A DNA stretch of 64,000 bases. It comes from Polytrichum commune. Taxonomy: Eukaryota; Streptophyta; Polytrichopsida; Polytrichales; Polytrichaceae. The notes beneath the pieces were generated by a model. The model was given only the letters and a program-made list of their open reading frames with translations, had not been told where the DNA came from and made no database searches. Shown here in pieces: positions 39,998 through 64,000 of the stretch. The stretch covers positions 40,393,081-40,457,080 of the forward strand of contig OX485809.1 in NCBI GenBank assembly GCA_950295325.1, in the 5' to 3' direction. Position 1 is the first letter of the stretch. Every line of letters starts with the position of its first letter. The position numbers and the translations under genes were made by a program.

Positions 39998-40022
39998 ACA
40001 AATGGTCCGCTCATTTTAATGT

Positions 40023-40045
40023 GGGGAACGTGATGGGAACGTCAT
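40023..40045 (+). repeat. Left subterminal GGGAACGT pair
   Basis: GGGAACGTGAT is followed by GGGAACGTCAT. The same word occurs twice, inverted, at the other end of the element. It is a likely transposase binding site by analogy with other TIR elements. Confidence 0.75.
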
Positions 40046-40181
40046 GATTGCTTCTTTGTACGATAGAACACCCGTGGAGGATTTAGGGACCACAAACAAT
40101 GTGTTCCAATGACACCGGACAAACAATCAATTGTAATATGGAGGATCCCATCAAAGAAGACAAAAGGATTGTGCCTACACT

Positions 40182-40201
40182 CCATGGGTGAACACCCGTG
40201 G
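40182..40201. repeat. Palindrome, left-most full copy
   Basis: CCATGGGTGAACACCCGTGG. A half copy lies at 40067-40077 and degraded copies near 40310 and 40425. Confidence 0.85.
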
Positions 40202-40471
40202 ATAATTTGTTCCCACCATACACATTGGAGGACTCCCACATATTAAACATATTGGCAATTATGACAATGCACGTGAAAATTCACAAAAAAATGACTTTAA
40301 AATTGGTGTCACGAACATCCGTGGGACAAATGTCAATGTCTATGGCTCTCTAATTAATGCTCACAAAATTAAAATTGAGCACCAAACTAGGTAACTTGAT
40401 GGTGTCATCCATCTAGCCCACCCACGAGACATCACCCGTGGATACCGAGGAATGAGCAATGCAGCTTTAAG

Positions 40472-43400: not shown

Positions 43401-44530
43401 GACAACCCAATGTAATGTGGAATCTGAACATCGATATCAAGGGTTGTCAACACACATTGAACACAAGCTCACGGGTGTTCACCCGTGGGGGACAACATTG
43501 ACATATCAGCAGAATGTCCAAACTCATATAGCGGGTGAGCTCTACACCTCTCTTCACGCTACTCAAAAAAGTATGTGTTGCCTATCATATTCACATTGTG
43601 AGAAGTGCCCTTCTTACCAGTTCGCTTAAAGCCCCCACACCAAAACTAACATCCCTAACACTGCATTGTCAACAATTATTACTACGCATGTAGGTGTCAC
43701 ACTTGCTGGCTCAAGTGGTAACAAAATAGTAGCCATACAGGATAGTGCCAATATTCATGTTTAACGAATATCATCGTCATCATATATCAAAATGAATCAC
43801 GAAACTTCCAACTCGTAATTCACAACATATTTCACATACCTAACAGTGGATCTACAAAAGATCATAATTGCATCTACAACTATTGAGTATGTCACACACA
43901 TGATACACGGCCATCTTGTAACCTCACATATGTAGGGACAACTAACATACATATGATCTACTTCCACGGGTGAACACCCGTGGGGCCTTCCATGCATCTG
44001 CATATAGGAGTCTTCCACGGGTGAACACCCGTGGGCGCCCCCCACCGGGTCCGCGTATCTCCCACGGGTGAACACCCGTGGGGGCCCCCCACCGGGTCCG
44101 CGTCTCTCCCACGGGTGAGCACCCGTGAGCCCCCCCACCGGGTCCGCGTCTCTCCCACGGGTGAACACCCGTGGGGGCCCCCCAACCGAGTCCGAGTCTC
44201 TCCCACGGGTGAACACCCGTGGGGCCCCCACCGGGTCCGAGTCTCTCCCACGGGTGAACACCTGTGGGGCCCCAACCGGGTCCGAGTCTCTCCCACGGGT
44301 GAACACCTGTGGGGCCCCAACCGGGTCCGAGTCTCTCCCACGGGTGAACACCTGTGGGGCCCCAACCGGGTCCGAGTCTCTCCCACGGGTGAACACCCGT
44401 GGACTACTATGCCGTACAGTTTGGGGGTGTACGGACATGGGGTTGCCACGGGTGCACCCGTGGCAGAGTGGGAAAGCGAGTATGGTAGAACTCAGCTCAC
44501 CTCTTCCACCATGTGAGGCACACTCTCCAT
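40472..44530 (-). CDS. DUF7869-like protein, candidate DDE-type transposase with BAH/Tudor-like C-terminus
   Basis: Three exons on the minus strand: 44530-44501, 43423-41395 and 41253-40472. They total 2,841 nt, or 946 residues, with phase kept at both junctions. Exon 1 encodes MESVPHMVEE after a TATA box. The core has Cys-rich motifs (CCSERCC, CGTC) and an RNase-H-like series of acidic residues: HDKMDYGK (Asp408), VQMDNCAKDNK (Asp530) and VGHTHEDVDAMFGRF (Glu569). The last motif is the signature I associate with DUF7869 proteins of many eukaryotes. The catalytic reading is inference. Residues ~820-880 (VGHYVLLCPSE ... WMGRVIS ... IEIVYYVPV) look like a BAH or Tudor fold. No stop or frameshift is seen. 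Intron 1 holds a palindrome array and intron 2 one palindrome. Confidence 0.75.
41304..41327. repeat. Palindrome in intron 2 of the transposase gene
   Basis: A perfect dyad with centre GTGATCAC and CCCACGG/CCGTGGG arms, extended by a GC pair on each side. It lies wholly inside the 141-base intron 41254-41394. Confidence 0.95.
43470..43487. repeat. Palindrome near the 3' end of transposase intron 1
   Basis: CACGGGTGTTCACCCGTG, 47 bases inside the predicted acceptor of exon 2. Confidence 0.9.
43964..44402. repeat. Array of about ten palindromes, ~47-base period, in transposase intron 1
   Basis: Units read CACGGGTGAACACCCGTG followed by a GGGGCCCCC...CCGGGTCCG-GTCTCTCC spacer. Two to three units have CACCTGTG in the right arm. 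A spacer-less variant, CCACGGGTGCACCCGTGG, follows at 44446-44463. The long frames read across this array are simply the repeat translated. Confidence 0.95.
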
Positions 44531-44605
44531 GGTTGCTCCTCAAGGGTGAAGGGTGAAGGGTGGTGGACTCAAATGAGGAAAAAGAAATGACCCTCCAAAT
44601 GGTGG

Positions 44606-44617
44606 CCTTTATATAGG
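44606..44617 (-). promoter_or_regulatory. TATA box of the transposase gene
   Basis: On the minus strand the sequence reads CCTATATAAAGG, about 80 bases upstream of the predicted ATG at 44530. The spacing suits a plant core promoter. Confidence 0.65.
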
Positions 44618-47216
44618 TCGTGAGCATGGCCTCCAATTTCACATGAGGAAGTACATTGCATTCCCTCCAATCTCGTAAGTACTTAGACGTCATTCCCTCC
44701 AATTCCAAACGCCATGAGCTAATCACGTACTAACCTTCCTCATATTGAATAATGATGACCTTCGGTAGTGGGCTAAGACCTCGTATGTACATGGAGTGAA
44801 AATTTGGTACAAGGCGAAGGAGAGTCTTCGCGGTACCAATGATCATTGTGTAAGCTTTGCATACACCTCATACCACTACCGAGCATACTCATGCCAACAT
44901 TACAATATAGTTGATTACAATCACAAGAATCATTTGTAACTAACCTACGACGAGGAGAAATTGGTAGAGTTGCATAATTCTTCCGTTGACGCATGACAAT
45001 TAAGGGGTTAATATCCCAGCAAGTGTAACACACTTTTTTGTTAATCCAAATTCTAAACTTACATAATGTCACCTTTTGGGAAAAAAAAATTGAAAGTTAT
45101 ACTCCCACATAAAATAGTGGTTGTTTGCACATATATATACATGACTCCTTTACACATTGAGGTCCCCCCTGAGTTGAGGTGATCCAAAGTGATGTGAGAG
45201 GTTCGTCATCAATGAGAAGCGTGTTTTTCTTTTGAATTAAATCTTCAACATTCCTTTTAGAGATATGAACCACCTAAGATATAAGACCATGCCATGGGCC
45301 AAGGAATAAATGCACATTAACTTCTACTTGATATTGTGATATGATCTTGTCTTTTTCTCACGGTGTTTTTTAGTCGACCACCAATTATAACATAATAATG
45401 TCGCAAGCATAATAATGTCACTTACCTAGTTATAATGAGAAATTACCTATTATTCCATACCCCACAATACTTTAAAGATGTCCAATACTTACAATATTGT
45501 GATAGTATGTTGTGAAATATTTTGTGACTTACAATGAGCGATGCAATATTTTGTGACTTATAATGAGTGATGGAGTAGTTTGCAAAATAATGTCAATCCC
45601 GCAGCCCCCATTATGATTCTAAATAATGTTATGAAATGAATCATTTATAGGCCTAGTGGGTATAATATCACAAAATATCAATCATTGTTATGATAGTTAT
45701 GTAATGTCCTTGTTTCTCTCATATTATGTGCTACATTATACTATTGCAATGGTGCAAGCATAGTAAAGTGGACCAAGAAAGTGCTCCGGTATATGAATGC
45801 CATGATTTTCTTGGTCAAACCCCTATAAGTAGTAGCAAAATGTTGTTTAAAATATATATAAAAACATTATCCAAACGATTTTGAGTTTGGGGATTATTGA
45901 ACTACTATTTAAAATTGGGGTTAAATACATTTGAGTAACCTTTAAGTAACCTTTCCAGAATGTCGAGCTCCAATCCATGGGTATGACTTGTGGACTTGCC
46001 ATAAATATTTTTGAAATCACCTTTAAGGAGAATATAATGGCGTAATTTTGGACCGTGTAGCCATAGATGTTGGAGGCATGTGGGATTTGTTGTTGGCAAT
46101 GTTCAAATTTAGTACTTTGGTACTTAGGTTGTCAATCCATGCCTACAACCGACCCTACAATGACAATCATATTTTGAGAGTTTGTGATTGACTATGCTAG
46201 GTTATAATAAGAATCTATGTGATAGCATGGTTATACTTACGTGAATACCGGTCCCTTAGATGTGCACTTTCTAAAGGACATTCGAGGCCGTAAATATGCA
46301 AGTCAACCAATACATTAACTGTACAACCACACTTGAAAGGTCAAGTATGAAGTTGAGTTTAGGCACATGGGGTGGGATTGAGATATATGTTGGAGTAGGC
46401 AATATCAATCAAGTCAAGTGATAGGGTATTTCAAATTCGTGGGATCTCGCAAACAATGGGTTTAGGGTTTAGGGTTATTTCTTTCCTTATCATTAGTCTA
46501 ATTTGGGTCATCATCATAAGTTTGCTCTTCATTCTCTTCTTCTGAGTGATATGTTGGAGTTACTACACTAAATATTTTAGTTAGTGTCGTATGGTATTTT
46601 ATGTCATTCTAGCAACATTTCTAGTGACATTTATTGTAATCAAGGTTACAAATATTTGTCATCCCAACTTACTTTTAGTTCTTCCAAATGCCAATGAATC
46701 CAACAAAGTTTGGTATATTTTGCATCCGTACATTTTTGCAATGAAATGTAGTCATGGATGATTAAAATTTGGATCATAATCACAATGTCGACAATGTTGT
46801 AAATTTGTGATGCCCAATGTTTTTTTTTGAAGGAATGACAAATAATCTTAGGTTTGGATTTATTGTTGATGACACTAAACGGGCAGTTGACAATTAGTAT
46901 TGAGCAACACAAATAGAGTTGATGACTCTAACTACAATTATGTTTATTGTGTTGTGGAGGTACGTTACATGGATGATGCTCCCGTCTAGGTAGTAACATG
47001 ACATAGAAGGATGGAATATATGTGGGAGTATTTGGATGTATTGAGGGCCCAGTGGAGGGGTGGCAAGTGGGTGTGGGTTGACTTCTTTGGTGGATTGCAT
47101 TAATGGCAATACTTATGATATCAGGGAAAGAATGTGACAACAAGGAATAAGATTTGAATTGAGAACATCCACACTCTAGGGTTTCAAGATGTTTCATCGC
47201 ATTCAAGTATGCCTAC

Positions 47217-48231
47217 CTAGACCATTTTGATATGAGTTCTTAATTGGGTTCTTGATATGAACACCCGCTTCAACGTATTTGCATCTTACAACATTCTCCA
47301 ATATCGATGACACATGGAGGATGGAGCCGGCTAGGTAGGAACATGACATAGAAGGATGAAATATATGTGGGAGTATTTGGACATATTAAGGGCCCAGTGG
47401 AACTTTGGCCCGTGGGTGCATAGTTCCCAACCCAGGGGGTGTACTATGACAGACATGTACGATAATATGCCAATGCATAGAAGGCTCAAGGGGTGGACGC
47501 TCCATACCACGTAGGAACATATTAAAGTGTAAGAAGGGGTGTCACTTGCCTCATACTAGCACAAAATATACATAAGTGTTAGTTTCATCGTATTCAAGTC
47601 TTCATTCATTATTGTCATATGGTGGTAGTCCTCAAGTTCCTAGAACACTCTAAATTGAGAATTTCGCATGTCTCAAATTCATATATGGACCACAACAACA
47701 TGGTCTAATGCTTGGGTCTTCCTACCTAAACCACTTTGAACCCGTGTTCTTAATTGGGTTCTTGATATGTCACACGGAGGATGAAGCCGGCTAGGTGGGA
47801 ACATGACATGGAAGGATGAAATATATGTGGGAGTATCTGGACATATTAAGGGCCCAGTGGAACTTTGGCCCGTGGGTGAATAGTTCCCATCCCAGGGGGT
47901 TTACTATGACAGACATGTGGGATTATATGCCAATGCATAGAAGGCTCAAGGGGTGGACGCTCCATACCACGTAGGAACACATTAAAGTGTAAGAAGGGGT
48001 GTCACTTGACTCATACTCATACAAAATATACACAAGTGAGAGTTATTAATTTTTCTAGTGTGTATAACTACAAAGGATACAAAGAATTTTGAAATAAATG
48101 TAGATGTACACAAGGGGACCCTAAGGTTTCGGAGTTAACTTAACAATGTATGTGTTAGTTTCATCGTATTCAAGTCTTCATTCATTATTGTCATATGGTG
48201 GTAGTCCTCAAGTTCCTAGAACACTCTAAGT
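47217..48231 (+). repeat. Imperfect tandem duplication inside the transposon
   Basis: The block at about 47217-47664 recurs at about 47731-48231. Shared words include TTCTTAATTGGGTTCTTGATATG, abbreviated here as TTAATTGGGTTCTTGATATG, then AGCCGGCTAGGT, GGGCCCAGTGGAACTTTGGC, GGGGTGGACGCTCCATACCA and ATGGTGGTAGTCCTCAAG. The second copy has an extra ~110 bases (48045-48155). Part of the unit also occurs at 46975-47056. Confidence 0.85.
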
Positions 48232-48369
48232 TCTTAGGTTTTGCTCCTTAGACTGTGTCTTGGGCGTTGCGATTTTGTCATCGCCGGATTGATGCAACTC
48301 TTGATGATGGGTATGATGTTGTTGCATAAGCAAATCAACTTGAATTCTGACGTGATATTATCAAAGAAA

Positions 48370-48957
48370 TTAGGGGGTTGGAGTGATGCCCACCCCCATG
48401 CTAGAATTTCAGATTGCACATAAATATAACTATACCCCCCTTTTTTAAAGAAATCAAGAAATCCAAAGGAACCCATCTTGGCACTAAGATGGTGAATATG
48501 AGATTTCTTGATACTTAAAAAAAAATTGCCAACACATTTGGGCTTTTGCTTGACATTAAAATTTGAACCTATATTGTGGGGGTGGGGATCACTCCAACCC
48601 CCTTTCAATCCTTGGCTAGGCTTATGCTTGGGTTTGATGTGGCATTAGCAAATCAATTTGAATTATGATGTAGCATCAGCAAAGTAATCAGGGGCCTAGA
48701 GTGATGCCCACCTGCACACCATAATTTCATATTACATGAATGTAAGTAAAGTTCAAACATGTGGGCAAGGAACTTTGGGAATTTGTTTTTAAGAATACAT
48801 CAACAAATTCAAGAAACATAATCAAGCACCAATAGGGTCTTCTGTGATTTTTATTTAATTTTAAAGAAAAATTGTCAACATATTTGGCTTCTTTTCATTT
48901 ACATTGCATTTGAAACTCTAGTGTAGGGGGGGTAGGCATCACTCTAGTCCCCCTTTC
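48370..48957. repeat. Two tandem copies of a small foldback element
   Basis: GGGGTTGGAGTGATGCCCAC (48373) pairs with GGGGATCACTCCAACCCCC (48584). The same arrangement recurs, diverged, at 48688 and 48930. Between and after them the phrase GATGTGGCATTAGCAAATCA repeats, again near 49408. Confidence 0.75.
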
Positions 48958-49179
48958 CAATGCTTGACTAGGCTTATGCTTGCGGTTTGTTGTGGCATTA
49001 CACTCATGAGGTTGTTGTGTACTTAGGCTTGGAACACAATATTCATTAAAATGAGAGTTTTCCAGTGAATTGAGAGTACATAAAGCAACCTATTAATCCA
49101 AGAATGAAATGAAAACCACTGGATAGCTATAGAGCACAAGTAAAAAAATAACATTTGATTTTCCGCCATAAATTCCACC

Positions 49180-49294
49180 GTAGTTTCCATTAAAATGAGA
49201 GTATGTTAAGCTGGGAAATCGACTCATTTAGGTCGACTCAACCTAAATGAGTTGATTTTCCAACTTAACATACTCTCATTTTAATGGAAACTAC
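49180..49294. repeat. Hairpin of ~50 bp arms containing a TIR-like word
   Basis: GTAGTTTCCATTAAAATGAG starts the left arm, and its exact reverse complement ends the right arm at 49294. The middle pairs as ACTCATTTAGGT / ACCTAAATGAGT. The word TTAAAATGAG resembles the ACTAAAATGAG inner edge of the transposon termini and also occurs at 49045. Confidence 0.85.
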
Positions 49295-49499
49295 ACGTTT
49301 GAAGTATAATCTAGTATTTATCAACCTAACATGACTTTTAGGTGTCCAGGTGGCCAATATTATTTTGAGAGGATCCCACTCTCTCAAAATATTGAATATC
49401 GTGTTTTGGGTATGATGTGGCATTAGCAAATCAATTTGAGTTTTGATGTGGCATTAGCAAAGCACATGAATGTGAATAAAATCCAAACCCAGAGTATAT

Positions 49500-49900
49500 T
49501 TGTATGTTAACAAATTATGTTAATGACTATATGTAAATGCAACTTTTTATTTATTACCAAGTGCTGAAAATTATGTTACCAAGTGTTGATAATTATGTTA
49601 CCAATACTTGGACATATTGCTAAGTGATATTAATTATCTCACTAATACCCAGATTTCGTACTAAGCACTGATAATTTTCTTACTAACTCCCACCTATCTT
49701 ACTAGGACGTAGTTAACCAAATCTTAATACGTAGTTATCTTACTAATACGCAGTTATCTTACTAGCTAATTATCTTACCAATATTTAAATATCTTACTAA
49801 GTGCCAATAACTATATCACTAATACTTACTTATCTTACTATGTACTACTAATTAATATACGAATGTGATGCCTACATTACTAAGTACTAATAATTCTTTA
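49500..49900. repeat. Degenerate TTACTAA-type low-complexity repeat
   Basis: Words like CTTACTAA, TTACCAAGTG and TACTTA recur irregularly about every 25-40 bases over 400 bases. Confidence 0.6.
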
Positions 49901-50079
49901 TCACTACCTCCCTAAACCATCATACCGCCCAAACCCCCTCCGCATCGTCCTTAAGCCGCCGATTCCGAAATCCCTTCGCATCCCGAGATCTCATCCACCA
50001 CGTCCCTTCGTACTAATCACTCATTATGTGGCCTTTTACTTCCACCATCCCGTCATTATGGCGTTTCTTGAATGGGACC

Positions 50080-50570
50080 CACTCTCTCATTGTCTCTCTC
50101 TCTCTCATTCTCCCTCACTCTCATTCTTCCTCTCTCTCATTCTCCTCTTTCCACCATTGAAGCTTCCGACCCAAAGCTCCACTTCAAAACTCCCTCTTCT
50201 TTCTTCCACCACTTTTCTGGACTCTCTTCATTCTTGCTGGACTCTCTTCATTCTTTTTGGACTATCTTCATTCTTTTTGGACTATCTTCATTTTGGACTC
50301 TCTTCATTCTTGCTGGAATACCACTTTTCTAAATTCTTGTCATTTCTCTTTCTCTCCACATTTCTTCATTCTCTCCATTCTCTTGTTCCTCCTACTTTTC
50401 TTGTTTCTCTTATTTCTCCACCCTCTACTCACTTTCCTGATTCTCATTCTCTTTCTTGCTTCAACTGACTTTCTTGATTATCTTCTTTCTGTAGCTTCTA
50501 CTCACTTCTCCATTCTATTGCTTCATCTTGCTTCCACCCACTTCTCCATACTCTTGTTCAAATCCAGAAT
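50080..50570 (+). promoter_or_regulatory. Pyrimidine-rich promoter or leader of the H3-tail/ParB-like gene
   Basis: A dense CTCTCT/TTCATTCTT tract with tandem copies of TGGACTCTCTTCATTCTT. It precedes a likely 5' untranslated exon near 51042-51092 (AAACAAACATTGG ... CCAAAGAATCCTG) that ends at a GTGAGTAT donor. The open frames here are Leu/Phe/Ser-rich low complexity and are not called as genes. Confidence 0.45.
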
Positions 50571-51167
50571 GTGGCATTGCTGAAATGTGGAGAAAAGTGA
50601 GAGGATGAAGAAAGATTGGAGAGAAGTCCAATTCTGGTACTTGTAAGCAATCATTTCATTCTCCTAATCTTCCATTCTATTCATGCTTTGGTTGCATTGT
50701 AGTGCTTGTGAAGTCCAATTCTGGAATTGCTGTTTGTGGTGAACCAGGGTTTGTTTGTTTCTGATGGTAGGGTTTCAATTGTGAGAATGTGGTGCATTTC
50801 TGGTGCACTAGGGTTTCAATTCGTTGGAGAATCTCACACCCAAATATGTTAGAGAAATTTAAGTGAGTTGTGTGATGCTTGGTTGTGATGAATTGAGTGA
50901 AATGCTAGAGGAATGCTCAAACTAGGATGCAATGAGGGTGTGTTCCTAATAATGTGAGACCAGAATTTCTTGTTTTTTTGCTTTGAGAGCATGAATGTAT
51001 TTCACATGGAACTAATCTTTTAGGGTTTTGTTATGTGCAGAAACAAACATTGGATTTGAACAACATTAGGCATGGCTCCACCAAAGAATCCTGGTGAGTA
51101 TGCATAAATTCTCATTACCTTGGCCCTAGGTGTGAAAGGGGTTGTCTGGAAGTGGTTATTTCAAGGG

Positions 51168-51509
51168 CCCACGGGTGTTCACCCGTGGGCCTCCTCACTC
51201 GCAACTGGTGGTGGGGTATGCCCACGGGTGTTCACCCATGGGCCTCCCCACTCCTAACTGGTGGTGGGGTTGGCCCACGGGTGAACACCCGTGGGCCTCC
51301 GCACTCCCAACTGGTGGTGGGGTATGCCCACGGGTATTCACCCGTGGCCCTCCCCACTCCTAACTGGTGGTGGGGATTGCCCACGGGTGAACACCCGTGG
51401 GCCTCCCCACTCGCAACTGGTGGTGGGGTATGCCCACGGGTGTTCACCCGTGGGCCTCCCCACTCCTAACTTGCGGTGGGGTATGCCCACGGGTGAACAC
51501 CCGTGGGCC
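51168..51509. repeat. Array of seven palindromes, 53-base period, in the 5' intron of the H3-tail/ParB-like gene
   Basis: Starts near 51168, 51221, 51274, 51327, 51380, 51432 and 51485. Spacers read CCTCCCCACTC-AACTGGTGGTGGGGT. The two central bases between the dyad arms are TT in some units and AA in others, so the array mixes both orientations. It ends about 180 bases before the start codon at 51690. Confidence 0.95.
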
Positions 51510-51689
51510 TTTCCATTCTCTTGGAGGGGGCCATTTTTGGGTAGTTTTCTTTTGGCTTTCTTAGCTAACACAACATTGTTCCACCACAGGTTTATGTTTT
51601 TGAAGGTTATAGACAAGACCATGTGGTAGACAGTTGGTGTTTTATTCAGGTGCATAGAGGTGTCGCAGTGACCTCTCATTTGAATATAG

Positions 51690-54600
51690 ATGGCAAGAAC
51701 TAAGCAAACGGCTCGTAAAGGTATAACCACAATACCTATGTGCACGTCAATGTTATATGAATTCTAAAATTATGAAAATTGTACACTATGCGGAGTACTA
51801 ACACGTGCATTTTCGTCTTCAGTATCTGGGGGCGTGGGAAGAGCGGTGAACTACGATATTGAGGTGTTGGGCCCAGAGTTGCAATGGTTCATGCAGTACA
51901 GTGGTTTCGGGGAGACAACGGTCCTCTCGCTATATACGAAGACTGGGCCTAATTCCACGTGGAGGAAGTTCCTAAATGCAAAGCATGTGTTGGACATCCA
52001 AGCGGATGGGAGCCGCGTTCTGATTATGTGTAAGTCGTCAGAACGCAAGAAGGACTTCAAGGTTGCAGGATTAGTGGATACATTTTCGTATGCGGATGTG
52101 AACGAAGAACTCAACAATGAGGGAGAGAACATCCGCTCATTAAACGGTGAATTTCTCACCTATTGTATAGAATACAGCGAGACCAACAAGCATACAAGGT
52201 CCGCGGAGGAGAGATCAATCATGATCGAGCAAGACTACAAGGCTGCTCTACGGCGAGTGACGGTAATAGTTGAGGAGGCGAAGGCGGCGAGGTTGGAGGA
52301 AAATTTGAGGAAGAAGCAAATCCGAAACGGGAAGAGGAAGGATCAAGGTGAGGAACGTGCTATGTCGTCTAGGAAGAAGACAAGACCCGCCGAAGATCAT
52401 GAAATGATTGTCGAAGACACACCCGCCGAGGATGTTGTGGCGAAGAGAGGCAAGAAGAAAATTGTCGAAGATAGTCCATTTCTTGAGCTCGAGAAGATTC
52501 CGAGGCAATCAATTCATGGGCCTCCAGAAAAATCGGTTGGAGACAGATTGATGGATATGGAATTGTTTAAGAACAAGTACAACAAGGTTTGGATTTTTGG
52601 TGAAGGCGTCAATGGATTTGTAAATATTGCAAATATAGAGCGGGGCGATGCAGGGTATAACTGCCGGCCCATATCCGACGCACATTTGAGGGAGATGAAG
52701 ACATGGTTATTCAACTATGCCTTCATACCGAAGATCCATCCCAACTTCTTGACAATCGTTCCATCGGATAGGCGAAGGAAACCTACAAATTTTGAGGAGG
52801 TGAAGAACAAATCGTTCCACGTGGTGAATGGACAACACACGTTAGCAGCATGTTTGGAGTATGTGAATGATGCGGCCAGCACAGATGAGATGAAGAGGTT
52901 TTTCTCGACATGGCCCTGTAATGTGGTCTGGGCCCCTGAAGGTGATGACGACCCTCTGTTTCACTTTTCTGGTGTTCTAAACCTGGATAGTGAGTATAGG
53001 AAACATTTCCCATCATTTACGGAGTGCATTCAGCACGCCAGGAAGACGTGGATTAGGCGAGGAAGGCCTGACCGAACCGTACGCGAAAAGTCCAACAATG
53101 CGGAAGCGTTTAAGAAGTGGAAGGTATATTCCAAACTTGTGACTTTTGAATTTATCAATTGCTTGATCCCCACGGGTGTTCACCCGTGGGCCACTATGAT
53201 GCTGTTGGTGATTGATAGAAATAGAAGGAGTTGTATACATGGGGATTGATATATGGCCGCTATTTGATACAAGCATTTGTTACGTGCGTCATGTGGACGT
53301 TCCGCGTGGAGAGGGAGACCAACCTCGTCATGAAGCACGTGTTGCCCGTGTTGAGAGATGACATATGGGAGAAGTGGGAGAAGATATTCAAGGAATACGA
53401 GAGTGGCGAGTACGTGGACCCTAAGACCGGGCTTCGTATGAAAGATACGAAGGGTTTCAAACCAAGGAAGGTGGTCAAGAACGATCTGAAGCAGTTTCGA
53501 GGCTTGACAGAGATGGAGCTCGACAAGGCAGCGGATCAAATCCTCTCCGCCAAAGATGGAGAGGATTACCCTAGGCATACCTTGAAGACTGTGCGCGATT
53601 GGGCGGTGAATAGGAAGAAGAAGAATGAAACCTATATCGGAATGGCACAGTGTTTAGACCCGACCCCAATGTACATCGTCAATGTGGAGCAGAAGGAGAC
53701 TATTGATCGGAATTTGTGGAGATTGTGGAAGCGAGTGAATAACTTTGGAAAACTCCAGCGAGAACGACTTGTGGACTTGCTTGGAGCGGAGTACCTTCTT
53801 GCCGCCATGAACCCAACAAGGAAGAGACTACCTATTCCCGACCGGTTCAAAGAAGGAGTGCGAAACATACTAGGTAGCCATAATACGGAGGTTTCGCCCG
53901 CCCATGTCGTGTTGTCTATTGACAACAATTACGCGCTCAGCGGTGGGACAGTGATCGCACCAGTACTGCATGCTTACATGGACACACGTTTTCTGCCCGG
54001 AGTCTAGGCGGGAATAGGTAGTGGAGGTCGTATGATGGAGGTTGTCGACTCCACACTGCAAGGTCTTCGTCGCGCTTTTCCTGGCATTTTGGAGTCCCCC
54101 CAATTGTGGACTGTGATTTCGGAATATCCGGACCGGCATTTCATACACAATGTTCTGAAGACACACTTGCCGAGAAATGTGAGATTTTGTGACGCAGTCT
54201 ACCATGGAACCAAAGAGGAGAAAATTGCTTCTCGCGATTGCTTCTTCGAAGCAAGTGCTCTTCGTGTTACAACCTGCGTTTTTCCTAGTAGAGGCGAGGC
54301 AAGTTCGGAGGTGGCTGTGCGGCTCTGTGGAGGACGGAAGATGCTGGACGTGCATGAGCCTGGGCGATATGCACGTTATTCAGAGAAAAAGGCTTATTCC
54401 AATGAGGAGGCCAAGTCTTTATTCAAGGGGGAGTTGAGAATGCAGACCTATATAGATATCATCAAGCCTTCTTGTCTTGAGGGGTCATTTTTTCTGAATA
54501 TTTGTGGAGGCAACAAGGCGCATATAGTGGCACATGTAAGTATTGAGCATCTTCTCCCAATTGTGATATTCTGGATATACCACGTTATGTAGATGATGTC

Positions 54601-57600
54601 CTAGAGAGCCATATCCTACACCAGGTAGGAAGGCCCACGGGTGAACACCCGTGGGCCTGGACATGCACCTGCCTTATAACCCCATGTTTGATAGCTCTCC
54701 AGATTGTTATTTGTTTCCGAATCAATAAGTTGGGAATTTCACAATAACGAATTTGACATTTAATGGCTTTCTCATTCAATGGATGTGTTCAGGCCTTGGG
54801 TATGAAGGTAGTGAATATTGTGCCCGTGGAGATGGTGGAGGTGGCGAAGACAAAAATGATTTCCGCACTTGACTGGAGCCTACAAAGGTGGAATGAAGAA
54901 GGTAAAATCGCTGCCCGAGACCCGGAAGAAGAAGGAGAAGATGATATCGATATTGAATCGATTATTGAACGCGCATTGCGTCGCAAGCCTGTCAATGATG
55001 CTCCCCTGGAGGAGGAAGAGGATGAAGAGGATGAAGAGGAGGCGGTGAATGAAGACAACCCAGTTATTAACCTAGGGGAGTCTGAAAAGGAAGTGGAAGA
55101 GGAAGAGCAAGAGGAAGAGCAAGAGCAAGAGCAAGAGGATGCTGTGGCCGTTAACGCCGCAATGGCGGACGCCATGGCGGAGCTCCTCTCGGAGGCCGAG
55201 GAGGAGGCCTTTAATTTCAAAACTTCAATGGTGATTCAGGAGGACATGCCACAGGTCGAGGTTCCCCACGGGTGTTCACCCGTGGGGGGTGTGGAGGGGG
55301 AGAGGTTGGGGGAGGCGGTGGGGCAGGAAGTTGTTCATAGGGAGCCTGAGCATAGTGTTAATATCGCGGTGGGATCTTTCTCGTCTGGGATCCCATCTAC
55401 ACCCGGACGTGGGTTTGTTGAAGTTGATACTTCTACACGAAATGAAGAACAAGCAGATGTTCGTCCTATGGGAGAATCCGAGGAGGAAGAGCGTCCACGG
55501 TCCGCGGAAGAGCCTCAATTGGAGGCTAATCCTGGCAGAAGGTCTACATCGAGACCATCTGCAAGGAAGAAGGTGAAAGCTCCCCGAAGGGGGAGGTCAT
55601 CTCTACGTCCCCCTAGAGTTGTAGAACTTTCTCGATCTGCGGAGGCCATGGATCATTCTAGTCTTGAACGCGAGGTTGAATTTGGCGAAGTAGCGGATGT
55701 GGAGGATGAACTTGTGGACGTAATCATGTCTGAAGCTGCGCATGACGAAGGTGTGAGCACGGATTTGAACGTCAGCTCACCTGTGGAGGAGGTCGCCGCT
55801 GCCGTGCTCGAAGTCCTAGGCCAAGGACGAATACACAGAGATTCCCCTGGTGTTGTGGTTGCAGAGGAGCCCACAGCTAGTGAAGCAGAGGTGATCATGC
55901 GAAAACAAGTCATATGCTTGGATAGTGATGATGATATGCCCGAGAAATGTGTGGAACTAGACGTGAGGGTGAAGGTTAGAGATCGAGTTCCACATCGGGT
56001 TCGGGGGACGTTTGCGGACTACATGACGGACGATTCCGAGGACGAAGACTATGGGATGCCAGGGTACAACAGAGTTAAACTCAACTTTGTTGATTACCCT
56101 CACCCTATGCTTGCTTCGAGACCCGACACGGGCAAGGAATCGGATGGGAAGGAGAAGGTGCATTTTGCACCATTTGTGGACAAATTTTTGGCAGAGGTTC
56201 CCGAGAACGTGCGATTGAATCTTGCGCATTTATACAAGTCGTATGACTATCACAAGATGTTCGCTTATCTCTCCACTCCAGCGTTTTGTGAAGCAGTGAA
56301 GGTGAAACATGTTCTACATGCCGCTTCATTGAAGAAAATGAGAAAGAGATGGACCGCGTTTGAAGCTCCAAAACATCGTGGAGGACGAGGTCAATTCCCG
56401 GGATCCTCCGCCGCTCAAGCTGGCAGTGTTGTGGATTCTACCATGGAGATCATCGACGTCAGTGAAGTGCCAGATTCTCCAAGGAGGGATGTCCATGTTG
56501 GCCCTGTTGCTGAGGGTCAACCGTCTTCCTCCAATTTGGTTGCGGCAGAACGGGAGGTCATTCCCCCGAGTTCTCATGACGACCCTGCACTCCTAGACCG
56601 AGCTCCAGGTATCATATATGGTGTTATTTGATTGGAATTGGTCCCACGGGTGTTCACCCGTGGGTCCCCTGGTTTGTAGTTTACAATTTCCACGCAAATT
56701 GTTAGATCATGTCCAATACTTGATTGATATTTTGCCCACGGGTGTTCACCCGTGGGAGAGTATGGTTTTCAGCATGTGGATCTCATAAGTTATGTGTTGA
56801 TGTGGTCACAGGTCCTACAGCCACGGCCGAATTACCTCCTTCGGTACGATGTTCTCCCCTAGCTCGCAAAACTAATCAATAAATGTGCAAGCATTATTTT
56901 CTATTGCGGATGCATACATATGTCAACCCAATCTGTTGTTTCCTAGTCGAGAAATATCCATTAGAATCTATTGTTTCCTTAGATTAAAAACCTTTAGAAT
57001 GACTTGAGATTTTGTCATCGCCAGATACTCACCTCTCCAAGCACTGTTGTCCATCGGAGAGAGAAGATATGGTTAGTGCTGGATGTCAACGGGATCCTTG
57101 TGAGATCAACAAAGTGCGACAATGTCAACACCAGGAAGTCTCTTGAATCACAATATAGCCCCCTTATAACTGGGGAGTTGGCTCCCCTCTTTCTCCCATA
57201 TAGTGCCTTAATACCTAGGAAAGGACTGGGACGCTTTCTGCGTTTTGTTCTTTCGAACTTCCATGTTGTCATCTGGTCGTCGAAGCTCATGAAGAATCTC
57301 CAGCCAATTGTGCGACACTTCTTCAAAGGGTGTAGACATCCAGAGTATGTAATTGGGCAAGAACTATGTGACACTCTGAAGGATGAGAGAGGACAAGTTC
57401 TTCCTAGTCCTATGAATTCCGATTCAAGCTTCTTCGTGAAAGACCTGAGCGCATTTTTTGAGTGGAGCCGGACACATCCTCTGCCGCACATGAAGCAACC
57501 CTCTCATAGGACCACACTACTTGTTGATGACTCCCCTTACAAATGCATCCCAAACCCTCCTGGGAGCTACGTCAACCCTCCCCCATTTCTGTCGAACCAA

Positions 57601-57789
57601 AGCTTGGACACTCTGCATAATTACCTACAAAGGCTCTTGAGTTCTGAACAATATGTGCCAGATTTTGTGGGGAGCAACCCTTATCCATTAGGCCAGGGAC
57701 CCTTCAATCTAGAGTTGCCAAATTCTCAGATTTATAAGCAATCATTAGCTAGACATACAAGTCTGAAATCTGCCCGTATGGTCCCATAG
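51690..57789 (+). CDS. Histone H3-tail / ParB-like / methyltransferase-like / HAD fusion protein
   Basis: Seven exons: 51690-51720, 51823-53123, 53231-53942, 54018-54535, 54793-56608, 56812-56843 and 57025-57789. They total 5,175 nt, or 1,724 residues, in phase throughout. Exon 1 encodes MARTKQTARK, identical to histone H3 including K4 and K9. After the splice come V-S-G-G, keeping H3 G12-G13 in register. A ParB-like domain follows with RPISDAHLREMKTW and FHVVNGQHTLAACLEYV (near 346). Residues ~660-880 look like a beta-class N4/N6 methyltransferase: IDNNY where DPPY is expected, LWTVISEYPDRHF, then FFLNICGGNKAHIVAHALGM as motif I. An acidic tract, an NLS-like RKKVKAPRRGR and an unknown region lead to an FCP1/NIF-like HAD domain from ~1475 (LVLDVNGILV, VVIWSS, LLVDDSPYK). 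Exons 1 and 4 and the 78-nt third intron are the least certain parts. Palindromes lie in introns 2, 4 and 6 flanks, and one is exonic. Confidence 0.7.
53169..53190. repeat. Palindrome in intron 2 of the fusion gene
   Basis: CCACGGGTGTTCACCCGTGG core inside the 107-base intron 53124-53230. Confidence 0.95.
54631..54658. repeat. Palindrome in intron 4 of the fusion gene
   Basis: Perfect arms AGGCCCACGGGTG / CACCCGTGGGCCT around AA, the longest dyad in the element. It splits the methyltransferase motif I exon pair. Confidence 0.95.
55264..55287. repeat. Palindrome retained in coding exon 5
   Basis: The palindrome is read in frame as PHGCSPVG near residue 1011. It is the only copy within a predicted coding exon. 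It lies in a disordered linker, so it is likely tolerated. Confidence 0.85.
56643..56756. repeat. Two palindromes in intron 5 of the fusion gene
   Basis: Copies at 56643-56664 and 56735-56756, both with a TT centre, inside intron 56609-56811. Confidence 0.95.
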
Positions 57790-58025
57790 GCGCAGATGTC
57801 TGTGTAGATCCCTTGTTGGGGCCGCAACTCGCTCGTACATTGTATGTGAAATAAGTGGAACTAAAACTTTTTGGACTTTTTGGAAGTTGCTCTGGTTTTG
57901 TGGACTTATTTCATGCAAACATGATATGGTGATGAATGTATGCCACTCGGATTCTACTACCTTGCAACACTGTTGTGTTAGAGAAGTTTCGACTATTTAC
58001 AACCACATTGAACGTTTGGCATTAT

Positions 58026-59382
58026 CCCACGGGTGTTCACCCGTGGCAATGTGGTGGTTGATTCAATGAATGTACCAGAACACTTGGACAATGTTAGTTG
58101 ACAACTTGGGAGTTTGGGTTGTTATGGGGAACATTAATATGTAGGACTTAGTCGGCTATAATTCAATTATTTTTGCACATGTTCATCTTGCACCCACTGG
58201 CTCCTCTTGCACATAATGTCCTGCTTCCATGGAATCTTATGTTCTTGTACCATAACAGCATTCCCCATTTCCAACGCGACCTAAGAACTATATTGCCACT
58301 CCACCTCGCGGACACCGTCCTCCGGATGCTAACGCCGACTTCGCCGAAGTGACATCTCCATGCCCTAAGGTAATTTATTTTCCACATGAATCTCATTTTT
58401 TGTGGTTGTGTTTCGTCCTGGGGATTCTAATATCATTTTGGCCTATGTTGTGTTAGACACATATGCTCCAAACAAGCGATGTTGCGCTTGCGGTGGCTGT
58501 TCCGGTCGCGGTCGTGGTTGCAGCTCCGGTCACACGCGCTCATGTGAAGAGACACCTTTCTCTCCAAACCACACAGCCTAGTGAGCCCACGGGCTCGGGA
58601 AATAGTTCTGGATGTTGGAGGTGTAGTTCACCCAATACCACCTCATCCATGTCTGATTACATGGCTGCAAGGGTGAAACAACTTCGAGAAGCTACAGCTT
58701 TGACGGCGGAGAAAAAACGGCTTGAAGAACTCAAGCGCAAGCAATGTAGTGTAGCTCAAAGGATACCCCATGACAAGATGTTGAAAATGATTACTGATTC
58801 ATACTCCTCTTGTAGATAGCCGGACCTTTATGGTTATAGATTGTCTACGGGTGTTCACCCATGGATACAACAATTCATCTACTTTGTGACATATTTTGTT
58901 CACACTGTGCCAATTTTTATCAAATCCAAATGATGTTTTGACCCTTAGTTGTGTAGTCGGGTATGACTTGTAGACCTTCCTGCAAGTGTTATGGATCTTG
59001 CATCGTGTGTTGCATGCCGTTGGTTGGTCACGGGCGTTCACCCGTGGTTGGATGTTTTTGTATTAAGTGCCCATGATGGTTTTTATGATTACACCCATTA
59101 TATTTGCATACATTTGTTCACATGCGCATGGTTGTTCCTTAGTGGTGTCGACTTATGTTGTGTTATGGATATAGGTTCATTTGTTGCGGGGTGTTGGTTG
59201 GTCACGAGTGAACACCCGTGGTTACAAGTGGGCTAAGTTTCACTTTCGGCAAGTACAAGGCATTCATCTCACTTATATATATACACCAATGTGCATGAAA
59301 TAGTGTGTTAGTCTATCTCAATGACCTTCCTCTTGTTCTAAACCTTGTCAATGATGGCAATTCACGGGTATTTACCCGTGAA
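58026..59382. repeat. Five dispersed palindromes at the right end of the element
   Basis: Copies at 58026-58046, 58845-58864 (two arm mismatches), 59029-59046, 59202-59221 and 59361-59382. The last (TTCACGGGTATTTACCCGTGAA) lies just inside the subterminal motifs. Confidence 0.9.
58258..58819 (+). CDS. Possible small third gene of the element
   Basis: An exon at 58258-58370 (HSPFPTRPKNYIATPPRGHR...) ends at a GTAATT donor and joins in phase to 58456-58819. That exon ends in a coiled-coil-like MSDYMAARVKQLREATALTA, then KKRLEELKRKQ, and a stop. The first exon and start were not found. It could be a separate small protein or an alternative 3' end of the fusion gene. No family is recognised. Confidence 0.35.
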
Positions 59383-59383
59383 G

Positions 59384-59405
59384 CACGTTCCCAATGCACG
59401 TTCCC
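59384..59405 (-). repeat. Right subterminal GGGAACGTG pair
   Basis: CACGTTCCC occurs at 59384-59392 and 59397-59405, the inverse of the left-end motifs. Confidence 0.8.
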
Positions 59406-59439
59406 ATCGGTACGAATTGTCTCATAATGGTCCAATTGG

Positions 59440-59459
59440 CTCATTTTAGTTAATATCCC
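59440..59459 (-). repeat. Right terminal inverted repeat
   Basis: CTCATTTTAGTTAATATCCC, the exact reverse complement of the left end. Confidence 0.9.
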
Positions 59460-60741
59460 CATATAGCCTCCACGGTTTAATACCTTTCCAGTTCTAAATC
59501 AACCATTTAGATCTTGCAACTCTTAATTAAATAACCACCCTTTGTTTGGTCAAGATGAATTCATGTTGTAGTTTGATGCGTTTTAATCAATGTGAAATCA
59601 GTGGACAAATAAATTTAGAAGTGTGTGCTGGTATGTGGGAAATAATCAATTACATTGGGAATGGATTTCATCATCGGAGTTTAATCTGTATCAGAAAATG
59701 GCTGTAATCTAAACTTTGCAAAAAAATCGTTCAAGCTTGGTGAGGGTTGTCCATTCAAGGTATTAATGGTGTAGATCCAATGAATTTTGGAGGAACGTGC
59801 AAGAAATGGCTGTCACTTGAACTTTGCACAGGAAAATAAATGGACCTCATATGGGTGCCAGACTTGATTTTGTTTTCTTCCTTCATCTCACAACATCTCT
59901 AATACTGTTGGATGCAATTTGCATATCACTTGATTACCCACATTATGTACACTTGCAGACGCTTGCTGGAAATTCACTTGAAAGTAGGCTAGACTTTGAG
60001 AGGTATTTACCAGTGTTGGGCAGGTATATGACTTTGTTAATAACCTCAGGCTTTCTGTGAGTACAGGCCTTTATCTACATTGCTTCTTTCTCTCGATTCT
60101 GTGATCTGAAAGACCGTCCTCGCGAAGTTGATCGATAGGGGAATGCACAGATTTCTGATATGCGGTGGAGCGGTTGTTGGATTAGGTTCCTCGTGGTTCA
60201 ATCTTGTGAATTGGCTCAAATTGGTGATGTCTTGGACTAATCCGGCTGCTGCTTGAATGACTACAGAGCTTGCTGGAAGAAGGTGAGGAGATGACTGTTG
60301 TTGGGCACGTCAAGGAGAAGAAATTCCTTCGTCTCAGGCGCTCCTTGTGAGGGCCACAGGGAAATTGCCTAGTGTTATTCTAGTAATTAGGATAAGTGGT
60401 GCAAGGCTGCAGCTGCATGAAGCTTAATTCCATTAGAATGTTACTTTAGAGATGCACATGATCATGCTTGGCTACCTGTAGAAGGGACTGCTGTCACAGT
60501 GGTATTAAAGGTGGGGATGCAAAAAGCAAACTCTATGTATGAGCAAAGCATTTGTAAATGCTCTTGAGAAAGTGAAAATCAATAAAGAAAAGGTGTTTTA
60601 CACACCACTTGTGATCAAGTCAGCTGAGAAATGGAGGTAAGGGGTGACCAATTGAAGTTTAGTTGGTGAGGGAGGACGCCCCCCACCCAGCAGATTTTCA
60701 CTCGTCAGGCACCTCGGTTGCGGCTTCGTGGACAATTTGCT
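59460..60741. other. Region right of the transposon, no gene seen
   Basis: No conserved frame. If the large element inserted here, this DNA was once contiguous with the sequence ending at 39977. Confidence 0.4.
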
Positions 60742-60765
60742 CCAATCCCACGGATCCATGGGATT
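60742..60765. repeat. Isolated BamHI-centred palindrome
   Basis: AATCCCACGGATCCATGGGATT: the same motif as the 37.4-38.3 kb array with one arm mismatch, 90 bases before the first exon of the downstream gene. Its presence ties the two places to one sequence family. Confidence 0.9.
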
Positions 60766-60855
60766 AAGAGATATGGTCAAATTTTCACAATTTCTTTGCT
60801 GCTTCATCTCATTAGTCTTTCATTTTGTTAATGCCATTTGTTTCTCTCTATGTAG

Positions 60856-63800
60856 GAGTTGGAGGGAATGGATCTCTCCGATGATCTTGTGGTCTTGGAG
60901 CCCTCTGTGGAGGAGGAGCAAGTGGAGGATGCTGTGGACTTGAACAACGTCGAAGAGCTGGAGGATATTGAGGAGGTTGTTCCAGAACAACTCAAGCAAG
61001 TTGACCGGGTGAACACCGACGTGCAGGAGGTAGTTGATTTAGACACTTATGTCTTCCGTTCTTGCACCTGCCCTCCTTTAGAGTCGGTGGTTGAGTTATT
61101 CTCGTGTGTACTAAATTGAATCGGATGTTTGTAGACTCCCTCTAGACTTCCCGAGGAACCTCCCGAGTCGGCTAACCCCGAGGAGAGTGAGGTCAATCTT
61201 CGAGCGAAGCAGAAACAAGATTCGACGGCAGTCATCAATCGCCTCCGCATTCGGCCTCTTGAGAAGTCTCGACTTTGCATCCCCCTCTGCCGCTTGCGGG
61301 ATTTGCCACTCGTTCGGCCCATCAACGAGTTGGATGTCCAGAGGTTGGAGAACGAATTTGTTACGGGGTACCGAGATGGTGACCGTGTTCTCTATGTTTC
61401 CATCTACAACAACAAGGACGACATCTTGGAGGTCACGGAGGACATCTCGTCCACCTGGAGTCCGTTGTGGAAGCTTGAGAGTGAAAGATTCGATGCACGG
61501 ATGGCCGCCGACCCCGATCTTGTCCACTTTGTGGGCAAGATGTTCTACGTGTGGGAGGGGAACCACCGGTTGACCGCTTGGTGGCGCCACGTGAACATGC
61601 TCCATCCTACGGAAGAGGCGTGGCATATCTCTCCCTATTGTATTGCCTTGGATTCGGGGAAGCATAGTGGCGTTCTCATGAATGCCATGAACGACGTGAA
61701 TTGGTATGTCTCTCTCTATTCTTTGCTACTTCATTCTTTGTTTGTGAGTGTCTTCTCATCTTGTCTTCTTCAATTTTTTGTAGGTCTATCGAGAACGACC
61801 ACGTCAAGTCCAGCCTCCCCTCCAAGCTTCACCGCATCCGCTACTTTGGGACCTTGGAGTTGGAGGACTTCAAGGACCTCATTTCCAAGGAGGACTACTT
61901 GGCTTGTATCAATGCCAAGAGGAAGCACAACACTTGGTACCCCTTGACCATCGACGTCTTCGTCTCCTTTCTCTACAAGGTAATCACTTCCCCACACTTT
62001 GATTTCTCTCCTTTCAATTTCCATCTTCTTCGTTGGCTTACCTTTGCTTGCAACCAGAGAGAGATCTCCGCCGCCTCCGACGCTGCAGCTAGAGCTTACA
62101 AGGATGAGACTCCGGCCGATCAGAATGAGAAGTATGTGGCCATTGCCAACTCCGAGAATACCGACGCCTTCTTTGATGAGGTGCTCCTCTTCATCTTCTC
62201 TTCTCCTTCGATTTGTCCTTCATGATTTCTTCTCGATTTTGCTAACTCACCTCCAATTTCCTCATCTAGATCAATCGGCACTTCTCGGTGAACACAGTCC
62301 CGGACATGACCATCGAGAAGCTTTCTAAGGTGGCCAACACTCATGTCCCGTGTCATTTCAAGGCGAAATGGCTCCGTTGGTGGAATTCCACCATGACTGT
62401 CCGAACCGGCAACAAATTCCCTTCCATTGTGCCCCTTAAGGAGAGGGTCCTCGAATCCTGGCTTCATAAGGCCTCTTTCTGGGCTCAGGTGAATCTCTCC
62501 CCTCCTTTGGATTGATTGTTTTCTCTACGGTTGTCTTCCTCATTTCTTGTTTTTCATTCTATGACTACAGTTGGAGGACAGGGTTGATTTGGAGTTCAAG
62601 TCCTTAGAGGCTAGCCTTGGTCGCGCCATCAATTGGGATGTGCAAGGGGGTGTGTTACGTCCACCAAAGTTCGTGGATGGATGGAGGATCCTTCTCTGGG
62701 ACCACGCCTTCCCGCATTACTTTGAGGAGAAGTCAAACACGAAGTTCCTCAAGGGCACGAACCTCACTGAGATTGAAGATGGTATCAAGATCATTCACCG
62801 TGTCCTTTATAGGTATTTCTTCCTCCTCTCCACTTGTCCTTCATTTTCTTTGCAACACTCGAACTTCTCTCATTTTTTCCCATGTCTTTTGCTTTAGGTA
62901 CATCTATCACGAGCTTATTCCGAAAGAAGCTCTTTCTGCCTCCTTTCTTCCGGTCTATGTCGAGGAGTGGGTTCTGGACTCCTCCCCGAATTTCATGTAC
63001 ACTAACGAGCACGATGTTTACCCATTTGCTCACCTCAAGCATGCAGGGTGGTATTTGGACTGTTCGAAGGGGTTCGTTCCTCCCTCGGAGGTTCATTTGT
63101 TCACCTCTTTGAATGCTGAGGCACCCGCTGATGTTGTCTTTCACGAGCCCGTGGTCCCCGAGGAGTCGGTGAAGGGTACGAAGGCATCGAAGGTTGTTAA
63201 GGAAATCAAAAGCAAGAAGGTGAAGGCGGTCTCGGGTACTCAAGCTTCCCAAGCCACTGTGTCTACTCGTTCTGCTACGAAGGCCGCCGCCGAGGCTTCT
63301 GCTGCACCTGCTGCCACCTTTGTAGGTAGCCCATCCCTCCCTCTTGCCTTGCATGCCCCCGCTCCTTCTCACAGCACAGCCACTGCCCCCTCTTTGACTC
63401 GCAAGAGGAAGGCATTCGCAGCAGCAACGAGTGCTACATCCTCTGAGACTGCTTCTACCTACAGTCTCATTGAGAATGTAGACATCGGAGTGCTCATGGA
63501 CCACTACACGAAGACCAACTCCCACCAAGCGGCCTACCTTCGCATCGAAGAATTCATTGTCAAGGTAGGAGTCCACTTCTTTTTTCATTCTTGCATTCAT
63601 TTCTATCTTGTGAAGCATTCCTCTTCTCTTCTCAACCTTCTTCTTTGCTCTACAGGTTGGTGTCGGTCGGACTCGCCTTAACAGGAATCCCAAGTCCCAT
63701 TCCGGTATCGACCTTCTCCTTGTCGATGTACCGGACAATCTCCCGATGCCCGCCATCTCGACTTCGCCATCCGACATTCCAGCGTGGAACCGCCGGGGTC

Positions 63801-64000
63801 CGAGTTTCTTTGATGATGTCTTTACTTTCGTAGAGGACAACCTCCATGACAACGGTGTCCTCGTCATCATGCACCCCGATGCCCCCAAGATGCACGACGA
63901 CATTCGTGATTGGGCCTTGGAATGTCACTTTACTATCGCCAGGGACTGGTGGGGCGTGAATGATCTTCACCTTACGTCCGCACAAGATCCCAAGATGTTT
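60856..64000 (+). CDS. Second ParB-like / methyltransferase-like protein, incomplete at window end
   Basis: Exons: 60856-61029, 61135-61703, 61784-61979, 62058-62180, 62270-62488, 62571-62812, 62898-63564 and 63656 onward, all in phase. The start lies upstream, since the first exon opens at an acceptor. An acidic N-part leads to a ParB-like domain (RPINELDVQRLENEF, then FYVWEGNHRLTAWWRHV). After about 500 residues of unrecognised and Ala/Ser-rich linker sequence comes a Rossmann-like segment: GIDLLLVDVPDNLP, FFDDVFTFVEDNLHDNGVLVI and MHPDAPKMHDDIRDW. This matches the beta-class methyltransferase catalytic half, with VDVPDN where DPPY is expected. The same order and spacing of strands occurs in the fusion gene at 51.7-57.8 kb, so the two are diverged relatives. 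The AdoMet-binding half should lie beyond 64000. Confidence 0.65.

Follow-up and report, generated by a model that had tools for sequence, protein, structure and literature searches.

A histone H3 tail at the start of a transposon gene in Polytrichum commune

Why should a gene of a mobile element begin with the tail of histone H3? The question arises from a 64,000-nucleotide stretch of Polytrichum commune DNA (assembly GCA_950295325.1, contig OX485809.1, forward strand, positions 40,393,081 to 40,457,080), which is called the window here and is numbered from its first letter. An earlier note, made from these letters, had described a transposon gene whose first exon encodes MARTKQTARK, the start of H3. 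The window was compared with copies elsewhere in the genome (407.8 Mb searched). The gene, called the tail gene below, lies in a large two-gene DNA transposon of the terminal inverted repeat (TIR) type, the other gene encoding a protein with a DUF7869 domain. To judge from the aligned copies, the tail is almost certainly real and conserved.

The tail exon and its conservation

Exon 1 (51690-51720, plus strand) consists of ATGGCAAGAACTAAGCAAACGGCTCGTAAAG, which encodes MARTKQTARK plus one base and is followed by the donor GTATAA at 51721. The intron ends in TCTTCAG and exon 2 starts at 51823 with TATCTGGGGGC, reading V-S-G-G-V-G in frame. This structure, as given in the earlier note, was borne out by the reading frame, by the genome copies and by the splice sites, the donor and acceptor of intron 1 being conserved across four sub-families with diverged introns. 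The register that the note had proposed also holds: residues 1-9 are identical to H3 (9/9, Lys4 and Lys9 included) and Gly12-Gly13 are in place. The H3 residues Ser10, Thr11 and Lys14 are not retained. A methionine before alanine is normally removed, as in H3; after its removal the protein would begin ARTKQTARK-V-S/P-GG, and the predicted N-terminal peptide, ARTKQTARKVSGG (or ending in VPGG), can be told apart from H3 after residue 9.

The start of the frame was checked in 54 copies, leaving out L068 and L076, whose stretches start less than 60 bases from exon 1, and C1:67909330. An in-frame stop lies 1-3 codons upstream of the ATG in 53 of these and 21 codons upstream in the remaining one, so translation cannot enter from upstream without an additional intron. 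An alternative acceptor for intron 1, 27 bases upstream in sub-families A and B and 36 bases upstream in E, was rejected, as no long frame stays open with it in C or D.

A degenerate pattern for the tail with up to 3 mismatches gave a single match in the window, against a mean of 0.09 in shuffled sequence. The exact pattern was present at 54 places genome-wide, its reversed control at 0. Seventeen of the places read on as histone H3 (STGG..., ...STGGKAPRKQLATK), and the other 37, the window included, are copies of the transposon gene; transposon copies with the exact H3 start thus stand at 37 versus 17 H3-type places. At the donor each of the 37 reads AAAG followed by GTA, and no intron after Lys9 was found in any of the 17 H3-type places.

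In order not to select copies by their tail, exon 2 was used as the query, giving 100 genome matches. Matches with at least 61% identity that began no later than query residue 37 were kept (57); the other 43 were fragments without the 5' end, a remnant group at 43-46% identity and distant relatives at 23-29%. Exon 1 was then sought upstream with up to 3 mismatches. It was found in 56 of the 57 copies, exact in 37 and with 1-2 residue changes in 19, with no indel among them; the sole copy without it is fragmentary, its match beginning at residue 28. Copies that lacked the exon or carried frameshifts in it, which the earlier note had named as evidence against its reading, were otherwise not found within the family. 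The variants were MARTKQTTRK (14 copies), MAKTKQTTRK (2) and MARTKQIARK, MARTKQTSRK and MARTKQTAHK (1 each), so that Lys4 and Lys9 are present in 56/56. When exon 1 itself was tabulated in 57 copies, a set that includes C6:42679128, which is absent from the 57 body matches, A1, T3, K4, Q5 and K9 were invariant, R2 was altered in 2 copies and R8 was kept in 56.

Five representatives, one per sub-family and all with the exact tail (L017, L005, L037, L040, L016), were compared codon by codon. Across the 10 pairs, codons 2-10 showed 0 non-synonymous and 1-5 synonymous differences per pair. The conservation at protein level that the earlier note had proposed to look for therefore appears between these representatives in its strict form, synonymous change only. 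Exon 2 of the same five gave a synonymous divergence (dS) of 0.56-4.6, saturated in most pairs, with a ratio of non-synonymous to synonymous divergence (dN/dS) of 0.05-0.17. The tail carries eight synonymous and no other changes (neutral probability ~1e-5 to 1e-4), with synonymous variation at 5 of its 9 codons and every residue kept, and just 8 of 277 nine-codon windows of exon 2 were equally invariant. After Lys9, four representatives continue V-S-G-G and that of D continues V-P-G-G. Between A and C/D, DNA identity was 49-53% in the intron, 68-70% in exon 2 and 87-94% in exon 1. Conservation of the tail as a peptide, residue 7 excepted, is well supported by these comparisons.

The distant relatives were also read for a tail, and none was visible in L060-L064 (23-28% identity), in L059, the partner gene of a DUF7869 protein 39% identical to that of the window, or in L090-L092. 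A search for ARTKQTARK upstream of L060-L064 (1.6-1.8 kb each) and of L059 (7.9 kb) gave best matches of 3-5 of 9 residues, and 60 random stretches of 1.6 kb gave equally good ones. Across L090-L092 in full the best match was 4 of 9, which is less telling since only ~0.1-0.4 kb upstream of the long frame was covered. In L060-L064 a Met aligns directly after the GG of the tail. Since no tail was seen in six relatives for which ample upstream sequence was read, it is probably the mark of a single clade, as an N-terminal addition or with loss elsewhere. L090-L092 come from contigs filed as uncultured Synechococcales cyanobacterium AVDCRST_MAG81, where relatives of the gene are split by an apparent intron; they are probably eukaryotic contamination of a cyanobacterial metagenome-assembled genome.

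The element, its two genes and its palindromes

The transposon, a sub-family A copy, occupies 39975-59462 (19.5 kb). Its ends are a left TIR of 23 bp, ATAGGGATATTAACTAAAATGAG (39975-39997, plus strand), and a right TIR of 23 bp (59440-59462, minus strand) with 1 mismatch to the left one, and it is flanked by target-site duplications ATAG at 39971-39974 and 59463-59466. Homology with two other copies stops on the right near 59465, and on the left near 39971 in the one copy compared there, the C5 copy being covered to the right end only. These limits, with 4-bp duplications, follow from the uninterrupted target site GTTGATACATAGCCTCC in L072 and L073, two copies of the surrounding repeat that lack the insert. 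The repeat itself forms window 39850-39970 and 59463-64000 and is found again, 98-99% identical, at C5:25268830, C7:35659803 and other places. In the C6 copy ATAA flanks both sides by eye. The core of the right repeat recurs at the right end of one sub-family B copy and one D copy and was not found in the sub-family C stretch examined. Inverted repeats, target duplication and empty sites together assign the window element to the TIR type and, with the many near-identical copies, uphold the mobility that the earlier note had claimed. That note had the tail and the mobility right; it overlooked the limits of the element, the palindrome arrays, the gene for the DUF7869 protein and the NIF phosphatase domain with which the tail gene ends.

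The left half carries the presumed transposase gene on the minus strand. Its main exon (41393-43468, 692 codons open) matches PF25273 (DUF7869) with E 5.6e-46, and a second open frame of 287 codons at 40475-41335, for which no family match was found, is probably its 3' exon. Pfam assigns no function to the domain, no paper on DUF7869 by name turned up in the literature searched, and a profile search of the PDB with the DUF7869 stretch gave no solved relative by sequence. Acidic residues are visible in the protein by eye. A genome search in which 64 of 2,200 candidates were scored gave at least 68 matches, comprising 61 at 81-100% identity, one fragment at 57% and six at 39-52%, the six falling at three loci. 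Where pairs were compared by coordinates, this gene and the tail gene stand head to head, ~8-19 kb apart.

The tail gene has six exons, backed by splice sites common to sub-families A-D. Exon 2 (51823-53123, supported by reading frame, splice sites and genome matches) continues VSGG into a body that could not be classified; it includes a basic stretch and a domain containing an NGQH motif. It is followed by exon 3 (53274-54535), by exon 4 (54793-56608), which is acidic and of low complexity, by the short exon 5 (56812-56843), whose splice sites are conserved in A-D, and by exon 6 (57025-57789), all on the plus strand. By the lengths of its exons, a sister-type copy would encode a protein of ~1,700 residues. 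The splice sites of A-D agree with two exceptions, the changed acceptor of intron 2 in the window copy and the absence of intron 2 from sub-family C. Exon 3 of the window copy is also interrupted by an in-frame TAG (54005-54007). Both lesions are absent from two sister copies, one of which (C6:40297401) has a stop in exon 2. The window copy is thus a damaged family member with an intact tail. Intron 2 is gone from sub-family C precisely at the inferred junction, as expected if a spliced RNA was copied back. At the C loci C6:39193340 (L040, L089) and C1:33085437 there are 895-codon frames with one stop each in the match.

Exon 6 encodes a NIF/FCP1-type phosphatase domain (PF03031, E 9e-12, 45.4 bits against a cut-off of 21.8). 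In other copies of the element the domain is ~96-100% identical within A and mostly 74-91% identical in the other sub-families. Phosphatase activity is doubtful, the second Asp of the phosphatase motif DxDx(T/V) being Asn by eye. A PDB profile search with the NIF stretch gave no solved relative by sequence. Elsewhere in the genome at least 65 loci have NIF phosphatase open frames of 236-281 codons that are 35-39% identical; these are possibly cargo of further element families.

The body was less readily placed. Searches of exon 2 and exon 3 against Pfam, NCBIfam, PADLOC and PHROGs gave nothing significant, no Pfam family scored above cut-off for the exon 2-4 stretches of the window, PDB profile searches with the body and the NGQH domain had no hit below E 0.2, and no relatives were found in viral contigs. 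A Cas12a match of exon 3 in PADLOC (E 0.0019, 14.8 bits) was taken as chance. The earlier note had called the body methyltransferase-like, a description that found no support in the family searches and was dropped. Its other description, ParB-like, comes down to the NGQH motif and predicted secondary structure of low confidence and drew no profile support. The two predicted structures had a mean predicted local distance difference test score (pLDDT) of 37.6 and 43.7; in a low-confidence model NGQH sits between a strand and a helix.

A repeated palindrome is shared by the two halves of the element. The window search located a tandem array of it with a period of 45-48 bp upstream of the DUF7869 gene (44006-44402) and a tandem array of CCCACGGGTGwwCACCCGTGGG with a period of 53 bp adjoining the 5' side of the tail gene (51160-51506). 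The form CACGGGTG-nn-CACCCGTG occurs 20 times within the element and 0 times in the remaining 44.5 kb of the window. Single copies lie in introns and one in exon 4; the latter, at window 55267, is coding and has a counterpart at a similar place in a sub-family B copy. Relaxed copies lie ~0.3-0.7 kb from the right end of the element.

For each of A, B, C and D the relaxed sites were counted in the right half of a single copy, giving 8, 7, 6 and 8 respectively. In A and B the form is CACGGGTG-nn-CACCCGTG, with arms TG/CA at 13 of 15 sites. In C and D it is CACGGGCG-nn-CGCCCGTG with both arms changed: CG/CG at 6/6 sites in C, and in D CG/CG at 5/8 with the mixed CG/CA at 3. The C/D form has 232 sites genome-wide, against 0 for the reversed control, and 41 among the 50 listed of these are within 25 kb of element matches. 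The remaining 9 of the 50 are farther than 25 kb from any element match compared and are perhaps remnants. The palindrome types are specific to sub-family. Other repeated palindromes occur at distant NGQH loci, with 13 copies at L059, 9 at L061, 13 at L064, 5 at L062 and five (relaxed) at L091; no palindrome at three or more copies was found at L060 or L063, and only pairs at L090 and L092. Several NGQH loci with a palindrome of their own may be matched protein-site pairs on which the evolution of such pairs could be studied.

Possible action of the tail

The tail is identical to H3 over nine residues around two modifiable lysines, K4 and K9, and probably works as an H3 mimic. In the overall explanation proposed here, which we regard as evenly poised, the element encodes a regulatory protein that carries this functional mimic, is directed by palindromes and opposes silencing. 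The tail would be made, exposed on the protein and retained by selection. The protein body would be brought to the element's own palindromes, arrayed before both genes, a step held to be slightly more likely than not. The tail would there be recognised as H3 and would occupy or recruit the H3K4 and H3K9 enzymes and readers of the host, and silencing of the element would be blunted in the manner of VANC. This net effect, with the tail as a decoy, is the outcome favoured, held tentatively and a little short of evenly poised. A phospho-switch near lysine marks releases their readers; a tail with K4 and K9 and without S10, the T11 of H3 and K14 may offer the lysine marks without such a switch. A more specific form is unlikely: a pseudo-nucleosome, in which the NGQH protein on parS-like palindromes across the element would show many H3 tails markable at K4 and K9 but lacking S10 and the T11 of H3. 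As a decoy it might draw H3K9 methylation and its readers to the protein, uncoupling histone marking from DNA methylation.

The nearest known system is VANC, encoded by VANDAL elements, which are Mutator-like transposons of Arabidopsis. Like the tail protein it is a transposon-encoded protein other than the transposase, with short motifs in tandem in introns and upstream of genes; the nine-base motif to which it binds recurs through the non-coding DNA of the element, also in introns, and the motif types vary by sub-group (PMC5735166). It induces loss of silent marks (PMC10398659). The window element has the same kind of family-specific motif arrays in non-coding element DNA. It differs in its 18-bp palindrome and in having DUF7869 on the transposase side, and no histone tail is mentioned in the passages of PMC5735166 consulted.

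Mimicry of the H3 tail has other precedents. SNAG domains are not exact copies of H3. The SNAG factors GFI1 and SNAI1 likewise carry an N-terminal H3-tail mimic on a DNA-binding protein, which binds LSD1 (PMC5896174), and differ in being host factors, the window tail being 9/9 identical to H3 and on a mobile element. Assignment of the tail to the SNAG domains was rejected: by eye it is the sequence of H3 itself. The H3-mimic motifs of influenza NS1 and SARS-CoV-2 ORF8 are about four residues long and lie away from the N-terminus. These two viral proteins are similar in that a protein of a selfish genome acts on host chromatin through an H3-tail motif, according to a review of viral histone mimics in which 'transpos' has 0 occurrences (PMC10208167). 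In a 2026 review on gene capture by plant transposons 'histone' has 0 occurrences (PMC13317346). No transposon carrying a histone tail was found in the literature searched, which was mostly without subscription papers. Histone mimicry is known from viruses and host repressors; the exact nine-residue start of H3 on a transposon is, to our knowledge, new.

For the other parts of the element the known relatives are looser. The NGQH motif presumably resembles those of the ParB, DGQHR and DndB families. The ParB-parS and DGQHR/DndB systems share with the window its NGQH between strand and helix (in the low-confidence model) and a repeated palindrome by the gene, and differ in that the window body has no profile match to them. 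The gene on the transposase side matches the domain of the DUF7869 proteins (PF25273).

Several points weigh against the proposed explanation. Exon 3 of the window copy is damaged, the body matches no DNA-binding family by profile and both of its models are of low confidence, and the copies counted are not independent. A tree was built from 54 copies, among them decayed ones (C6:42679128, whose exon 2 hardly aligns, C3:18623623, which has an insertion, and C1:67909330 were left out), and it places 13 synonymous and 15 non-synonymous changes in exon 1. Residue 7 accounts for twelve of the latter; the other three, R2K (twice) and T6I (once), each sit on one terminal branch. Thr7 is present in 16/56 copies, 7 of which are free of stops in the exon-2 match; parsimony cost 12 for either Ala or Thr at the root of residue 7, and a Thr7 copy taken as the B or E representative would have added one non-synonymous difference. 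For readers of the HP1 type Ala7 is important, and because it drifts, HP1-type reading is less likely as the main target. Finally, the palindromes could serve the DUF7869 protein instead, and the tail could bring in silencing or switch genes on instead of holding silencing off.

Ala7 and Thr7 form a real polymorphism. The view that Thr7 is a mere hot spot of methylation decay was rejected, C>T/G>A being only mildly enriched in CHG in the 29 B copies (CHG 33/71 sites, CG 35/94, CHH 118/368). Two other sites deviate from the majority in more B copies than residue 7 does; for both reasons Thr7 may be an inherited variant. Stops were present in 9 of 16 Thr7 copies and 11 of 37 others (p = 0.12), so that Thr7 copies are not clearly more decayed.

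The alternative that survives best, improbable as it is, keeps appreciable weight: the palindromes may be sites of the DUF7869 protein, for transposition or control, with the tail protein brought by it or absent there. Arrays precede both genes, relaxed copies lie close to the right end and subterminal transposase sites are common. On the other side, 5 of the 9 distant NGQH loci (L059, L061, L062, L064, L091) have repeated palindromes beside them that differ by family; L059 does adjoin a DUF7869 gene, and the other four (L060, L063, L090, L092) are without a palindrome at three or more copies.

It is rather unlikely that the tail instead switches on the genes of the element, either by drawing in activators on the H3K4 side (COMPASS, PHD-finger readers) or by blocking a demethylase of the LSD1 type. 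The NIF/FCP1 fold is linked to RNA polymerase II control, which would suit the phosphatase-type end of the protein, and the invariance of A1, T3, K4, Q5 and K9, with R2 altered in just two copies, also fits. SNAG, itself an H3-tail mimic, occupies LSD1 (PMC5896174). For a pure K4 role, however, K9 (57/57), R8 (56/57) and GG (five representatives) would be superfluous, and they are kept equally well.

Less probable again, and quite unlikely, is a tail that acts as a chromatin ligand, methylated and bound by the host so that the element protein is tethered to heterochromatin or limits itself; self-limitation is common among transposons and the A7-R8-K9 context is intact in the 37 exact copies, but 16 of 56 have Thr7, S10 is not retained and T11 is Ser or Pro. 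That the tail is a functionless H3 fragment, captured or arisen by chance, or is conserved for a role of the DNA or RNA itself, such as a splicing enhancer or the context of the start, is very improbable: transposons often capture gene pieces, the exon has just 31 bases and the all-copy tree has its 15 non-synonymous changes, but residues are kept while 5/9 codons vary synonymously across mostly dS-saturated sub-families, the A and C/D introns have diverged to about half identity and the 17 H3-type places have no intron after K9.

If the tail does work as a mimic, transposons would oppose silencing at the level of histones. The family would also be a natural test of which H3 residues are read by the silencing machinery of plants, with K4, K9, R8 and GG kept, Ala7 drifting and S10, T11 and K14 absent.

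Neighbourhood of the element

Two host-type genes were recognised in the window to the left of the element, one with a SAGA-Tad1 domain at 8870-9973 (E 2.5e-12) and one with a CRM (CRS1_YhbY) domain at 18696-19214 (E 1.3e-14). Directly left of the element, at 37429-38289, there is an array of a different palindrome, ATCCCACGGATCCGTGGGAT. Open frames on the minus strand at 31601-36071, near this array, may belong to another mobile element.

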